Origin: Frateuria edaphi
Lineage (GTDB): Bacteria; Pseudomonadota; Gammaproteobacteria; Xanthomonadales; Rhodanobacteraceae
Assembly: GCF_021117405.1 (NCBI RefSeq)
Contig: NZ_CP088251.1
Coordinates: 2,604,001-2,668,000, forward strand
Direction: 5' to 3'
Length of the DNA stretch: 64,000 nucleotides
A program made the position numbers and the translations under genes. Below the pieces are notes generated by a model. The model was not told the origin of the DNA. It worked only from the letters and a program-made list of their open reading frames with translations, and did no database searches. The first letter of the stretch is position 1, and each line of letters starts with the position of its first letter. This document shows, in pieces, positions 8,163 through 58,184 of this stretch.

Positions 8163-8558
8163 ATGAATGCACGTTCCGCACTCCTGATCCTGCTCGGCCT
8201 GGTCATCGGCGTCCTCGGCACCGTCTTCGCCATGAAGGCGCTGGGCAATCGCAACCCCATGCCGCACGCGGTGATGACAGTGATGGGCCACCACATGGGC
8301 GCGCTCGGCCAGGCGGTCAAGACCAAGCAGTGCGACGCCGCGCAGGTCAACGACCACTTGCTGCGGCTGCAGTCGACCGCATCGGACATCCCCGTCGCCT
8401 TCCCGGGCGCCGAGCAGGATTTCCTCGACCATTCCGGTCGCCTGCGTACGGCCCTGCAGGGCGCGGTGCAGGCGCATCCGACCGACTGCGCGGCGCTCGC
8501 CCAGGCGATCAAGCCGGTCGGCGACGCCTGCCAGTCCTGCCACGAGCAATACCGGTAA
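8163..8558 (+). CDS. Membrane-anchored c'-type cytochrome-like protein
   Basis: 131 residues. A hydrophobic segment at 5-23 is either a signal peptide or an anchor, and no clear cleavage site is visible. The rest is helical and ends with the heme-binding motif CQSCH at 123-127 close to the C-terminus, the arrangement of class II (c') cytochromes. Cytochromes c' bind NO or act in electron transfer; here only one heme site is visible. The start ATG is at 8163. The gene lies 24 bp before the sensor kinase gene on the same strand, so it is likely in the same transcript and may belong to the sensing function, but that is inference. Confidence 0.72.
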   Translation: MNARSALLILLGLVIGVLGTVFAMKALGNRNPMPHAVMTVMGHHMGALGQAVKTKQCDAAQVNDHLLRLQSTASDIPVAFPGAEQDFLDHSGRLRTALQGAVQAHPTDCAALAQAIKPVGDACQSCHEQYR

Positions 8559-8582: not shown

Positions 8583-9947
8583 ATGTTGATGCCAGGGACG
8601 ACCGACACGACGCACCGCCGCCGCTCGCGGCTGCAGCAGCTGCGGCGGCGGGTGGACAATGCGATGTTCACCCGCGCGCGCTACTCGCAGCCGATGATGC
8701 CGGTGATGTGCCTGCTCGGCGGGCTGTTCATGCCGCTGTACTGGTTCCTGTGGACCTATGTGCTGCCGCAGCCCTACAGCAACCTCGGCCTGCACCTCGC
8801 CGGCTGCGCGGCGCTGCTGCCGCTGGCGTGGCAACGCTGGTGGCCGCGCTCGTTCAAGCCGTGGCTGCCGCTGTACTGGTACGCGGTGATCACGTTCGTG
8901 CTGCCGTTCTTCTTCGGCTACCTGTGGCTGCGCAACGGCGGCACGATCGTCTGGATGGGTGCGCACCTGTTCTCCATCTTCATCACCATGATGCTGTTCG
9001 ACCTGGCCAGCTTCGCGCTCATCTGCAGCCTGGGCACGGCGCTGGCCGCGCTGGCGTTCCAGCTCGGGCCGCACGGGGCCTGGCCGTGGCACGCGCTGTT
9101 GCAATACGCACCGCTGCTGGCGCTGACGCTGATCCTTGGGCCGCTGGCCAGCCTCTCGCAGAAGTTCGCCGACGAGGCCAAGGTCAAGGCGCTGATCGGC
9201 GCTTCCAACAACATCGCGCACGAGCTGCGTACGCCGCTGGGCTCGGTGCAGATGGCCGGTCGCGCGATTGGCCGGTACCTGCCCAACCTGCTGGAGAGCC
9301 ACCGCGTGGCCGAGCGCGCCGGACTGCCCGTGGCCGCGCTGCGCAACCCTCACCTGCAGGCCCTGCAGCGCGGCATCTCGGTGATCGAACACGAGGTCAA
9401 CCACGCGCACACCGTGATCGACATGTTGCTGATGGCGGCCAGGCCGATGGGTACGCTGCAGCTCGAGCCGCTGCAGGCGCGCGCCTGCGTGGCGCAGGCG
9501 CTGGCGCGCTACCCGTACGCCTCGCAGGCCGAGCGCGAGCGCGTGCAGCTGTCGGCCGAGCCCACCGACTTCGTGCTGATGGGTTCGGAGACGCTGCTTA
9601 CGCACGTGCTCTTCAACCTGTTGCGCAACGCGCTGTTCCACACCGGCCGGGCCGGCAAGGGCGAGATCCACGTGAGCCTGGACAGCGATGCGGGCGGCCA
9701 CTGCATCCGCGTGCGGGACACCGGGCCCGGCATCCCGCCCGACGTGCTGCCGCGCATCTTCAACCGCTTCTATTCCTACAGCGAAAGCCGCGACGGCACC
9801 GGGCTGGGCATCGGCCTGGCTTTCTCCCAAAGTGCCGTCGAGCGCATGGGCGGTCGAATCAGCTGCCGCTCGCGCTGGGGCGAATACACCGAGTTTTTCG
9901 TGGCGTTCCCGCCATGCGTGCCAACAGGACAGGGACTTCCGGCATGA
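8583..9947 (+). CDS. CqsS/LqsS-like six-helix sensor histidine kinase
   Basis: 454 residues. The N-terminal part has about six membrane helices (about 38-185) and carries segments that I recognise from Vibrio CqsS: LPQPYSNLGL, FVLPFFF and TIVWM. The kinase part has NIAHELRTPLGS (phospho-His213), a preserved N box (SETLLTHVLFNLLRNALFH), RVRDTGPGI and GTGLGIGLAFS, and the family ending WGEYTEFFVAFP. CqsS and LqsS bind alpha-hydroxyketone autoinducers (CAI-1, LAI-1). Unlike CqsS this protein lacks the C-terminal receiver; that role is probably taken by the next gene, whose ATG overlaps the stop by four bases. No CqsA/LqsA synthase gene is visible in the window. Confidence 0.82.
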   Translation: MLMPGTTDTTHRRRSRLQQLRRRVDNAMFTRARYSQPMMPVMCLLGGLFMPLYWFLWTYVLPQPYSNLGLHLAGCAALLPLAWQRWWPRSFKPWLPLYWYAVITFVLPFFFGYLWLRNGGTIVWMGAHLFSIFITMMLFDLASFALICSLGTALAALAFQLGPHGAWPWHALLQYAPLLALTLILGPLASLSQKFADEAKVKALIGASNNIAHELRTPLGSVQMAGRAIGRYLPNLLESHRVAERAGLPVAALRNPHLQALQRGISVIEHEVNHAHTVIDMLLMAARPMGTLQLEPLQARACVAQALARYPYASQAERERVQLSAEPTDFVLMGSETLLTHVLFNLLRNALFHTGRAGKGEIHVSLDSDAGGHCIRVRDTGPGIPPDVLPRIFNRFYSYSESRDGTGLGIGLAFSQSAVERMGGRISCRSRWGEYTEFFVAFPPCVPTGQGLPA

Positions 9948-10960
9948 GCATCGACTTTCACGGCGACATCCTGCCGTTCCACTTCCCCACCACCACGCTG
10001 CTGGTGGACGACCACGAGACATACCTCGACAGCATGCCCCTGCTGCTCGATCCGGCCCTGCGCCTGCGCAGCTACAGCTCGCCGCGCAAGGCGCTGGCCG
10101 AACTGGGCAGCCACGGCATCCGCGCCGTGCCGGGTGGCGGCTGGATGTACCACTGGAAGGACCGCTCCTCGCAGACGCGCGAACTGGTCGCACTGGACAT
10201 CGATTCCATCCACCGCGTGATGTTCGACCCGGAGCGTTTCGCCGAGGTGTCGGTGGTGGTCGTGGACCTGACCATGCCCGAGATGGATGGCATTTCGTTC
10301 TGCCGCGAACTGGCCAATCCCCACATCGGCAAGATCCTGCTGACCGGCACCGCCGACGACTGCACCGCCATCGAAGCCTTCAACGCCGGCGTGATCGACC
10401 GCTTCATCCGCAAGAGCGATCCGCAGGCGATCGACAAGCTGCAACTGGCCATCCGAGCGCTGCAGCGGCGCTACTTCGAGCGCGTGGGCGGGTTCGTGGC
10501 CGAAGCGCTGGCGCTGGGCAACGTGCGATTCCTGCGCGACCGCGCCTTCCAGCAGGCCTTCCGCGGCCTGGTCGGCGACTTCCCTGCGGTGGAGTGCTAC
10601 CTGCACGTCAACCCCACCGGCCTGCTGCTGCTGGACGAGCGCGGCCGCGGCCGCTTCGTGCTGGTGCAGACCGACGAGGACCTGCGGGCGCACTACGAGA
10701 TCGCCAGCGACCTGGGCGCCCCGGAAGTACTGCTGGCCGCGTTGCGCGAAGGCGACCGATTGCCATGGTTCGGCGAGGGCGACGGCTACTTCCACGAAGG
10801 CATCCGCGAAACGGAAGCGCTGCTGCACCCGGCCGTGACCGTGCGCGGCGAGCAGTGGTACCACTTGGCGGTGATCGAGGACGTCTCCCGCTTCCAGCTC
10901 GGCAAACTGCGCAATTACCACGACTGGCTGGGTGAGCAGGACCAGGCCCTGGGGGCCTGA
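9944..10960 (+). CDS. Atypical response regulator, LqsR-like position and layout
   Basis: 338 residues. The receiver has the acidic pair Asp22-Asp23 (LLVDDHE), phospho-acceptor Asp108 in VVVDLTMPEMDG, Thr in LLTGTADD (134/136) and Lys157 in FIRKS. The distance between acidic pair and phospho-Asp is about 86 residues, roughly 40 more than in CheY-type receivers, so there is an insertion at about 50-95. The C-terminal half (about 180-338) has no helix-turn-helix, GGDEF, HD-GYP or EAL motif that I can see; it is of unknown fold. ATGA overlap with the kinase gene indicates translational coupling and partnership. Legionella LqsR also combines a receiver with a non-standard output domain, so it is a plausible relative. 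Confidence 0.8.
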   Translation: MSIDFHGDILPFHFPTTTLLVDDHETYLDSMPLLLDPALRLRSYSSPRKALAELGSHGIRAVPGGGWMYHWKDRSSQTRELVALDIDSIHRVMFDPERFAEVSVVVVDLTMPEMDGISFCRELANPHIGKILLTGTADDCTAIEAFNAGVIDRFIRKSDPQAIDKLQLAIRALQRRYFERVGGFVAEALALGNVRFLRDRAFQQAFRGLVGDFPAVECYLHVNPTGLLLLDERGRGRFVLVQTDEDLRAHYEIASDLGAPEVLLAALREGDRLPWFGEGDGYFHEGIRETEALLHPAVTVRGEQWYHLAVIEDVSRFQLGKLRNYHDWLGEQDQALGA

Positions 10961-10966
10961 TGACCT

Positions 10967-10995
10967 GGCAGGGGCTTCAGCCCGCCATGGCATCG
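10967..10995. repeat. Family-B palindrome (copy 2)
   Basis: GGCAGGGGCTTCAGCCCGCC at 10967 onward carries the GGGCTTCAGCCC core of the family-B element. It follows the response regulator stop codon by a few bases. The remaining stretch to 11099 shows no gene. Confidence 0.5.
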
Positions 10996-11099
10996 AAGCG
11001 CCGGGTCGAGGCCCATCCTAGCCTGCAGTAACTCTCTTGGCCGGGCCCGAGAGTCGGCAGTCGCGCCCAAGGGTCCACAACGGTTTCGCAGGCGGTTCG

Positions 11100-55362: not shown

Positions 55363-56898
55363 TCAGATTGAAGGGCGCGGCTCGACCCGTCGCGTCGAGC
55401 CAACTTCCGGATACGGGAACAGCTTGATCAGCGGCACCGAGAGGCCGTCGTCCCCCACCACGCGGCAGTGCGTGCGATCGAGCTGGCGCGGATCATCGAC
55501 CCCGCAGCTGTGGGCGATGATGCCGACCTCGTACATCAGGTTGCGCGCGTAGTGGTACACCTTCTCGCTCTTGTCGGTGACGACCAGACCGCGCTGCAGC
55601 TTCGGGTTCTGCGTGGTGATGCCGGTCGGGCAGGTGTTGCGGTTGCATTGCAGCGACTGAATGCAGCCGAGCGCGAGCATGAAGCCGCGGGCCGAGTTGA
55701 CGAAGTCCGCGCCCATCGACAGCGCCCAGGCCACGTCGTAGGCCGTGATGCGCTTGCCCGAGCAGATCACCTTGATGCGTTCGCGCAGACCCTTGGCGAT
55801 CAGCGTGTCGATGAGCGTCGGCAACGCCTCGTGCAGCGGCAAGCCCATGCCCTCCATCAACGTCTGCGGCGCCGCGCCGGTGCCGCCTTCGGAGCCGTCG
55901 ACGATGATGAAGTCGGGTGCGCTCTCGATCCCGCGCCTCCACACCTCGTCGCACAGTTCCTCGATCCACGCCGGGTCGCCCAGCACCGCCTTGAAGCCGG
56001 TCGGCTTTCCGCCGACCTCGCGCACGTGTGCAATGGCGTCGAGCAGCTGCGGCACGTTGGCGATGTCCAGGTGGCGGTTGGGGCTCTGCGAATCCACGCC
56101 AATCGGGATGCCGCGGATCGCCGCGATCTCCGCCGTCACCTTGATGCCGGGCAACAGGCCGCCCATGCCGGGCTTGGCGCCCTGGCCGAGCTTGATGCTG
56201 ACCATCTTCACCTGCTTGTGTGCGCAGATCGCGCGCAGGCGCTCGTCATCGAGCTGGCCGTCGGCGGTGCGCACGCCGTACTTGGCGGTGCCTATCTCGA
56301 ACACCAGGTCGCAGCCGCCTTCCAGGTGGTAGGGCGCCAGCCCGCCCTCGCCGGTATCCAGCCAGATGCCGGCCTTGGCTGCGCCATGCGAGAGCGCGCG
56401 CACGGCCGGCGCCGACAGCGCGCCGTAGCTCATCGCCGAGATGTTGAAGAAGGCTGCATGATCGTAGGGCTCGCGCGCGTACGGGCCGATCCGCACGGGT
56501 TTGGGATCGACATGGTGGCCTTCCAGCCGCGGGAATGGCGCATTGACGAAGAACGGCACGCCCTCGGCGGAAAGATCGCGCGTGGTGCCGAAGCCGATGG
56601 TGGTATCGGCGTTCTTGGCCGCGCGGTAGACCCACACGCGCTGGGCGCGGTTGAACGGCAGCTCCTCGCGATCGCTGGCGAACAGGTACTGGCGGAAGAA
56701 CTCGCCCAGGCGCAGGAACCCGTAGCGGAAATGCCCGATGACCGGGAAGTTGCGCAGCACCGCGTTGCCGGTCTGGTAGCGGTCGGCAATCCATACGGCC
56801 AGCACGAGCATTACCGCCAGCGCGAGCATCAGCACGAAGAATGCCGCCAATGTTTCGACCAGCACGATCAGCCAGTGCGCGAAGCCGTCCGATGCCAT
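55363..56898 (-). CDS. FMN-binding glutamate synthase family protein
   Basis: 511 residues. One membrane helix at about 7-35, then a glutamate-synthase-like FMN domain (GEGGLAPYHLEGG, IKLGQGAKPGMGGLLPG, DGSEGGTGAAP) and the iron-sulfur cysteines LGCIQSLQCNRNTCPTG. It lacks the amidotransferase domain, so it is one of the stand-alone GltB2-like proteins of unclear substrate. The ATG at 56898 gives the membrane N-terminus. Confidence 0.9.
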   Translation of the reverse strand: MASDGFAHWLIVLVETLAAFFVLMLALAVMLVLAVWIADRYQTGNAVLRNFPVIGHFRYGFLRLGEFFRQYLFASDREELPFNRAQRVWVYRAAKNADTTIGFGTTRDLSAEGVPFFVNAPFPRLEGHHVDPKPVRIGPYAREPYDHAAFFNISAMSYGALSAPAVRALSHGAAKAGIWLDTGEGGLAPYHLEGGCDLVFEIGTAKYGVRTADGQLDDERLRAICAHKQVKMVSIKLGQGAKPGMGGLLPGIKVTAEIAAIRGIPIGVDSQSPNRHLDIANVPQLLDAIAHVREVGGKPTGFKAVLGDPAWIEELCDEVWRRGIESAPDFIIVDGSEGGTGAAPQTLMEGMGLPLHEALPTLIDTLIAKGLRERIKVICSGKRITAYDVAWALSMGADFVNSARGFMLALGCIQSLQCNRNTCPTGITTQNPKLQRGLVVTDKSEKVYHYARNLMYEVGIIAHSCGVDDPRQLDRTHCRVVGDDGLSVPLIKLFPYPEVGSTRRVEPRPSI

Positions 56899-56947
56899 AA
56901 TTTGCTCTCCCTCCGGTGAAGCCGCGAGCCTAGCCCATCGCGCGGAC

Positions 56948-56980
56948 AAGCTCCCTCTCACCTGAGGGGCGAGGGAGCTT
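56948..56980. repeat. Family-A palindrome (copy 5)
   Basis: AAGCTCCCTC (56948-56957) and GAGGGAGCTT (56971-56980) form a perfect 10-bp inverted repeat, in the gap between purT and the glutamate-synthase-like gene. Confidence 0.65.
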
Positions 56981-57002
56981 CATCAGGCGAGTATGCGGAT
57001 TC

Positions 57003-58184
57003 TCAAAGCTCTACCTTCAGGCACCCCGCCGCCCGCACCGCCTTGGCACGCGCCGCCTCCACATCGACGTCCCGCGCCAGCGTCACCGCCATCCGCCGGC
57101 GACCCTTCACCTCCGGCTTGCCGAAGATGCGCAACTGCGTGTCGGGCTCGGCCAGCGCATCGGCCACGCCGTGGTAGCGCGGATGACGGCCTTCGCCCTC
57201 GACCAGCACCGCGCACGAGGCCGACGGCCCCCACTGGCGGATCACCGGGATCGGCAGGCCGAGGATCGCCCGCGCGTGCAGCGCGAATTCCGAAAGTTCC
57301 TGCGACATCAGCGTCACCAGTCCGGTGTCGTGCGGACGCGGGCTGACCTCGGAGAAGATCACGCTGTCGCCCCGGACGAAGAACTCCATGCCGAACACGC
57401 CCCAACCGCCCAGCGCCTGGGTGATCGCCGCGGCCTGGCGCTGCGCCTCGGCCAGCGCCGCTTCGCTCATCGGCTGCGGCTGCCACGACTCGCGGTAGTC
57501 GCCGTGTTCCTGGCGGTGGCCGATCGGCTGGCAGAAGCTGGTGCCATCGCGGTGGCGCACGGTGAGCAGGGTGATCTCGTAATCGAAGTCGACGAAACCC
57601 TCGACGATCACGCGCCCCTGCCCCGCGCGCCCGCCGGACTGTGCATAGTCCCAGGCCCCGTCGAGCTCGCCGGCATCGCGCACCGTGCTTTGTCCCTTGC
57701 CCGAGGAACTCATCACCGGCTTGATGACGAACGGGTAGCCGATCGCCTCGGCTGCCGCGCGGTACTCCGCCTGCGTGTCGCAGAAGCGATAGGGCGAGGT
57801 GGGCACGCCCAGCTCCTCGGCGGCGAGGCGCCGGATGCCTTCGCGATCCATCGTGAGCCAGGCGGCGCGTGCGGTCGGGATCACGCGCAACCCCTCTTTC
57901 TCCAGTTCGACCAGCGTCGGCGTGTGGATGGCCTCGATCTCGGGCACGACCAGGTCCGGCTTCTCGCGCGCTATCAGCGCGCGCAACGCGGCGCCGTCGA
58001 GCATGTCGATCACATGGCTGCGGTGCGCCACGTGCATGGCCGGTGCGTCCGGGTAGCGGTCGACCGCGATCACCTCCACGCCGAAACGCTGCAGCTCGAT
58101 CGCCACCTCCTTGCCCAGCTCGCCCGAGCCGAGCAGCAGGACGCGCACGGCGTGGTCGGAAAGCGGCGTGCCGAAAGGCTTCAT
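57003..58184 (-). CDS. purT: Formate-dependent GAR transformylase (PurT)
   Basis: 393 residues, ATP-grasp enzyme of de novo purine synthesis (third step, formate instead of formyl-THF). [20 protein letters not shown] at the N-terminus, [40 protein letters not shown] and the ending [12 protein letters not shown]-like ([14 protein letters not shown]) are as in E. coli PurT. Confidence 0.97.

Follow-up and report, generated by a model that had tools for sequence, protein, structure and literature searches.

The tandem genes lqsS and lqsR of Frateuria edaphi (Rhodanobacteraceae) lie in the window analysed here, a stretch of 64,000 nucleotides (positions 2,604,001 to 2,668,000 of contig NZ_CP088251.1), and encode a sensor histidine kinase and a response regulator of the Lqs quorum-sensing type. 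This pair has outlived the loss of its synthase, LqsA, and its sensor has lost the phenylalanine associated with recognition of the signal head group. The favoured reading, for which belief and doubt are about equally divided, is that the receptor of this orphaned pair has exchanged the ancestral alpha-hydroxyketone for a different ligand. Judged from the sequence, a re-tuned or blinded receptor is most likely, ahead of simple eavesdropping on alpha-hydroxyketones. The relevant features are given below in window coordinates.

8163..8558, + strand: cytochrome c' gene (Pfam PF01322, expectation value (E) 3.8e-12), a neighbour that is probably outside the Lqs mechanism
8583..9947, + strand: lqsS-type sensor histidine kinase of 454 aa, assigned by membrane-domain profiles, kinase tree and HATPase_c
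8694..9170, + strand: predicted six-helix membrane sensor domain, residues 38-196, from AlphaFold2 models; the end at 196 is the author's cut
8793..8795, + strand: His71, where 110/110 sensors of synthase-bearing genomes have Arg (column scan)
9123..9125, + strand: Leu181, equivalent in position to V. cholerae CqsS F162 and Legionella LqsS F168 (alignment and column scan; residue role from PMC3376566 and PMC5007282)
9219..9221, + strand: predicted phospho-acceptor His213 (NNIAHELRTP), aligned with His200 of the Legionella-type LqsS
9585..9911, + strand: HATPase_c domain, residues 335-443 (Pfam PF02518)
9944..10960, + strand: lqsR-type response regulator of 338 aa (PDB 6sy9, E 1.5e-49; Response_reg, E 4.2e-10)
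10265..10267, + strand: Asp108, predicted LqsR phospho-acceptor, invariant in 13 family members
10961..11099, + strand: 139 bp from lqsR to an Mpo1-like gene, where Luteibacter and other genera have lqsA (sequence; gene order in 40 named loci)

Both open reading frames (8583-9947 and 9944-10960) are intact and share the ATGA overlap at 9944-9947 that the initial annotation had recorded. The sensor is assigned by descent to the LqsS/CqsS family because of its membrane-domain profile matches and its placement in the kinase tree. With the histidine box left out, a 192-residue membrane piece gave E 9.8e-32 against a profile of 13 sensors from other groups and E 4.3e-24 against one of 75 Burkholderiaceae sensors, while the best of 2000 shuffled controls reached E 61. 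In a tree of 138 sensor kinases, the protein was placed with the LqsS proteins of Rhodanobacteraceae. Both membrane-domain profiles also matched a CqsS-type hybrid kinase that adjoins a CqsA matching 2wk7. The CqsS/LqsS-type receptor proposed by the initial annotation was therefore upheld, also under the test of whether its membrane domain, taken alone, falls outside the family; the motifs PYSNLGL, LPFFF and TIVWM, which had suggested the kinship, are present in the sensor and have counterpart stretches in the LqsS and CqsS-type proteins compared. AlphaFold2 modelled six membrane helices (residues 38-60, 68-82, 89-117, 122-138 and 141-161, plus one from 169 that runs into the kinase stalk), with a mean predicted local distance difference test (pLDDT) score of 85.7 for the sensor part. 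The kinase core, with its predicted phospho-acceptor His213, is present; HATPase_c matched at E 5.2e-26 in Pfam, and HisKA scored 22.6 bits, under its cut-off of 26.9. No C-terminal receiver was found by Pfam: Response_reg gave no match, and the protein stops after HATPase_c.

The regulator had been described as unusual, a label that gives way to a homology-based identity: the second gene of the pair is an LqsR-family response regulator. By far its best solved relative is PDB 6sy9, with a full-length match over residues 8-333. The chain is labelled only 'Response regulator' in the table, and we take it to be Legionella LqsR; the regulator of the Legionella-type locus (lqsA, lqsR, gap, lqsS) matches 6sy9 at E 3.9e-179, which fits this identity. 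Asp108 is invariant in the alignment of 13 LqsR sequences and carries the same residue number as D108 of Legionella LqsR (PMC3376566). Regarding the output of LqsR, diguanylate cyclase activity was undetected in vitro (PMC10653808).

The synthase is missing from the whole genome, which consists of one contig and is 99.96% complete: the best NF005526 hit reached 173 bits where the cut-off is 428, so that neither LqsA nor CqsA was found. Only two hits were obtained (173 and 165 bits). One is Kbl, at 725 bits against its own NCBIfam cut-off of 493 and beside tdh; the other is BioF, at 465 bits against its own cut-off of 426 and beside bioB, with tdh and bioB named by eye. Because these two enzymes match the same superfamily as the synthase, either of them, or an unrelated pathway, could in principle supply a ligand of the cell's own. 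Such a source is nevertheless very improbable, since both exceed the curated cut-offs of their own families, stand beside tdh and bioB, and are accompanied by no further genome hit at E 1e-5. The initial annotation had found the window to be free of a CqsA/LqsA gene, which was borne out, and had left a distant signal gene or mere listening as alternatives; the first of these found no support in the whole-genome search. Lacking a genomic synthase, F. edaphi does not possess a complete Lqs quorum-sensing system.

The receptor type had further been thought new for Rhodanobacteraceae, yet it is not rare there. LqsR occurs in 34 of the 147 family genomes sampled and LqsA in 23 (22 over the cut-off), all 23 of which also carry LqsR. 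At class level, LqsR is found in 26/369 genomes and LqsA over the cut-off in 7/369. Eleven family genomes have LqsR without LqsA: six of the window genus, four of genus g4 and one more (G093; G, C and L numbers are handles of genomes, contigs and loci). The genus Frateuria is uniform in this respect, with LqsR and without LqsA in 6/6 sampled genomes (the window genome and five others, F. flava and F. terrea included), as is genus g4 (Dyella lutea, D. ginsengisoli and relatives) in 4/4. The remaining genome, G093, has an empty usual lqs site (L167) and a divergent lqsS-lqsR pair on another contig of 198 kb (C2, near 55608-57903; L194, L305); this pair, perhaps acquired, has an LqsR that is 38% identical and keeps the head-group Phe. 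Among class relatives, G260 and G215 hold five and three LqsR-type genes, respectively, with no LqsS sensor and no LqsA at the thresholds used; these are expanded orphan LqsR regulators. A Legionella-like genome (G187) carries a second LqsA-like gene (371 bits) elsewhere in the genome.

The arrangement of the locus suggests how the synthase was lost. The 32 named loci of Rhodanobacteraceae show the gene order tcdA, cytochrome c' (29/32), lqsS, lqsR and then lqsA (23/32), and in many lqs loci the Mpo1-like gene, pirin and others follow downstream. Four Frateuria and three Dyella-type loci among the 32 are without lqsA; the Frateuria lqsR is followed after just 139 bp by the Mpo1-like gene. The two further loci without lqsA are L085, on a contig that stops in lqsR, and L097, which holds half of a split lqsR. 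Conserved flanks surround full, partial and empty sites alike. In 24 loci that have no lqs genes at the site, chosen by best cytochrome c' similarity and not at random, tcdA and cytochrome c' are still adjacent; the Mpo1-like gene comes directly next in 22, follows a second cytochrome c' copy in one and is unseen in one, whose flank is short. In the tcdA tree, genera with the full cluster fall in an outer grade and Frateuria, Dyella and the empty-site genera form one group with support 86/85, under the 95 mark, and the Frateuria and Dyella kinases form one clade (Shimodaira-Hasegawa-like approximate likelihood-ratio test (SH-aLRT) 97). The simplest history is that the cluster was present early, that lqsA was lost once, and that lqsSR was later lost in several genera and kept in Frateuria and Dyella. 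Two Dyella-type loci (L079, 7097-8758, and L088) hold a peptidase-like gene where lqsA lies in Luteibacter, its family judged by eye with no NCBIfam match at 1e-20. In Tahibacter aquaticus, lqsR is split between two contigs, with one half next to lqsS (L097) and the other next to lqsA (L087), which may reflect a rearrangement or an assembly fault.

The position of cytochrome c' in these loci, together with a spacing of 24 bp between its end and the lqsS start, might suggest a haem- or nitric-oxide-linked sensor operon in which cytochrome c' is the partner of LqsS. This can be given hardly any credence: cytochrome c' is present in 131 of the 147 family genomes and in all 26 genera, also at the site where the lqs genes are absent, and a search with cytochrome c' brought no match in the loci of Nitrococcus or Endozoicomonas.

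The predicted signal pocket distinguishes the Frateuria sensor from those that accompany a synthase. The residues that set ligand choice in CqsS are given in a review (PMC3376566), and F162 is described as important in head-group recognition (PMC5007282); they were mapped via the Legionella-type LqsS, whose His is number 200 as in PMC3376566. A column scan then covered all columns with at least 97% of one residue in the synthase-bearing set, with no position preselected, although it was run after the changes in Frateuria and Dyella had been noticed. Of the 145 sensors in the set, 110 belong to LqsA-bearing genomes and the other 35 to genomes in which LqsA is absent. The F162 column ranked first as the most violated, with Phe in 109/110 synthase-bearing against 14/35 synthase-less sensors. 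By group, Phe was found in 75/75 with a synthase versus 10/15 without in Burkholderiaceae, 24/24 versus 1/11 in Rhodanobacteraceae and 10/11 versus 3/9 elsewhere, counts that overstate the link since the sequences are related. The single non-Phe residue in the synthase-bearing set is the Ala of a second sensor in the Legionella-like G187 (L133, L193, L313), which also has a Phe sensor. The replacements are fixed, as Leu in 6/6 Frateuria and Met in 4/4 Dyella, and in 30 family genomes with loci (several overlapping the named loci) Phe was present in 20/20 with LqsA and Leu or Met in 10/10 without.

With regard to the composition of the set, the family genomes in it are the named loci plus L008 and L029. 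The synthase-bearing side includes G541 (412 bits), L085 (partial LqsA in the genome), L097, L129 and L136, whose LqsA falls short of the cut-off or lies on a different contig. Excluded were L087, L092, L096 and L098 (no complete LqsS alongside), L091 (one more record of Nitrococcus mobilis), the class loci in which no sensor is complete (L131, L132, L134, L135, L137, L139, L141, L143, L144, L146 and L147), short matches (L310, L311 and L315) and G626, whose sensor is in two pieces. At the key position, G758 reads as Arg in a single alignment and as Leu in the rest, never as Phe. Several synthase-less Burkholderiaceae sensors deviate in their own ways. Six related ones (G587, G675, G697, G748, G803 and G809) keep Phe and have a Trp at Legionella position 172 that is absent from every sensor of the synthase-bearing set, possibly another way of changing the pocket. 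LqsS is in two pieces in G626 and partial in G758, and the synthase-less sensor of G784 has a Tyr aligned at the phospho-His position (loci of these genomes include L294 and L295).

The residues of the predicted pocket bear directly on the proposal that Frateuria merely listens, with LqsS binding and reporting the alpha-hydroxyketones of neighbours such as Luteibacter. The membrane domain clearly belongs to the family, W124 (equivalent to CqsS W104) is kept, and close relatives within the family carry LqsA, all of which would suit such a role. On the other hand, the head-group Phe is replaced by Leu181, and residue 71 is His where Arg is invariant; more weakly, residue 185 is Leu instead of the small residue of synthase-linked family relatives, Leu being also found in some synthase-bearing Burkholderiaceae. 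The listening half of the earlier alternative is thus doubtful and is rated lower than in the initial annotation because the head-group Phe is gone; plain eavesdropping now appears unlikely. In transmembrane helix 6 (TM6), 5/28 residues are invariant across the 10 Frateuria and Dyella sensors and occur in none of 24 synthase-linked relatives, compared with 8/177 elsewhere (p 0.02).

The tree-based tests of the link between Phe and synthase gave mixed support. On the kinase tree, 5/5 inferred Phe losses fell on synthase-less branches, which make up 42% of branch length (P 0.014), in a reconstruction that places an lqsA gain inside the Rhodanobacteraceae branch as a result of ill-placed long rows. 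Once eight long rows of the author's choosing were dropped and other long rows stayed, 3/3 losses fell on synthase-less branches with 16% of the length (P 0.004). Both loss tests treat the tree as known.

Selection acts on both genes. Across the six Frateuria genomes, LqsR had a median pairwise omega of 0.10, the kinase part one of 0.17 and the sensor, N-terminal tail included, one of 0.28; four neighbouring genes (4-5 genomes each) gave 0.15-0.19 and tcdA 0.04. Without the tail, the sensor reached 0.23 (0.16-0.32) and the kinase 0.17 (0.12-0.23), and in Luteibacter both sensor and kinase gave 0.11; because the pairs are non-independent, these intervals are approximate. Such values indicate that lqsS and lqsR are both under purifying selection. 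They also bear on the view that the pair is a ligand-blind relic, with LqsS locked as a constitutive kinase, LqsR always phosphorylated and the pocket drifting until the pair is lost. A sensor omega of 2.2-fold (1.4-3.7) that of Luteibacter, the absence of lqs genes between cytochrome c' and the Mpo1-like gene in 23/24 loci of related genera, and the broken or partial sensors of G626 and G758 would agree with such decay. However, sensor omega remains at 0.23, the excess relative to the kinase part falls short of significance (P 0.145), the replacements at the head-group position are fixed and not scattered, and 8/9 other near-invariant membrane-domain positions are kept, residue 71 being the exception. 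The relic view is accordingly given about one chance in four, as the strongest of the competing explanations.

Since selection has maintained the receptor and the altered residues in it are fixed, a changed ligand is favoured over drift. In the mechanism that follows, LqsS would autophosphorylate on His213 and, by analogy with the family, pass the phosphate to Asp108 of LqsR, while its membrane domain would respond to a non-ancestral ligand, be it a molecule from outside or a lipid-like one from within the cell, in the manner of some LuxR solos. Several observations weigh against a re-tuned receptor. Synthase-bearing Tahibacter has six clade-specific TM6 residues of its own, so that change in TM6 alone is no mark of re-tuning. 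The 14 synthase-less sensors with Phe, 10 of them in Burkholderiaceae, are not altered at the key position. Independent lineage pairs gave 2-4 of 5 for the link and 0 against (median p 0.25), too few for significance. Related genera lack lqsSR altogether and the pair may be decaying, and the roughly twofold sensor omega relative to Luteibacter could be relaxation. More broadly, and somewhat less confidently than for the single pair, it is proposed that synthase-less LqsS proteins include two-component solos re-tuned off alpha-hydroxyketones, that the F162 position helps to tell self-served receptors apart, and that Frateuria and Dyella share one re-tuning event.

Solo receptors of acyl-homoserine lactones are well known, but a description of alpha-hydroxyketone receptor solos as a class was not found among the matches listed. 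In the open-licence literature, no paper on LqsA with Luteibacter or LqsR with Rhodanobacter was found, and none of the matches listed joined an lqs or cqs term with these genera, although the species table of PMC10653808 may list family members. The receptor family is known; a synthase-less, pocket-altered LqsS-LqsR pair is new. One site that is full, receptor-only or empty within a single family illustrates how a quorum-sensing system can part with the sender before the receiver. Made without recourse to mutational data, the column scan leads to the residue already picked by mutational work, and the F162 position offers a one-residue sorting of likely alpha-hydroxyketone receptors from likely altered ones. 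Being beyond the drive of a self-made alpha-hydroxyketone, the Frateuria receptor also provides a clean setting for questions of LqsS ligand and LqsR output; direct binding of alpha-hydroxyketones by Legionella LqsS had not been demonstrated according to the 2012 review (PMC3376566).

Among known systems, clusters of lqs genes extend across Alpha-, Beta- and Gammaproteobacteria (PMC10653808). The lqs locus of Legionella resembles that of Frateuria in its separate six-helix kinase without a receiver, the full-length LqsR match to 6sy9, the phospho-His and Asp108, and the neighbouring position of the genes. It differs in layout (PMC3376566), as the Frateuria genes overlap, run in one direction and have neither lqsA nor a gene between lqsS and lqsR, and in the head-group Phe, which is Leu in Frateuria. 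In Janthinobacterium, the sensor JqsS likewise adjoins an LqsR-type regulator, JqsR, but the synthase JqsA is present (PMC3566124). Vibrio CqsS shares the six-helix sensor domain and W104, whose equivalent is kept in Frateuria, but it is a hybrid kinase that feeds LuxU-LuxO, has F162 and is encoded in the same cluster as CqsA (PMC3376566). Ralstonia PhcX is an LqsR-family regulator that has survived the loss of lqsA and is decoupled from lqs; there, the Lqs sensor kinases are also gone and the regulator lies by phc genes, whereas Frateuria has kept its receptor (PMC10653808). The closest precedent for a re-tuned receptor may be drawn by analogy from the LuxR solos PluR and PauR, synthase-less receptors with substituted signal-contact residues, some of which sense other signals (PMC5007282), even though they belong to the unrelated acyl-homoserine-lactone receptor family.
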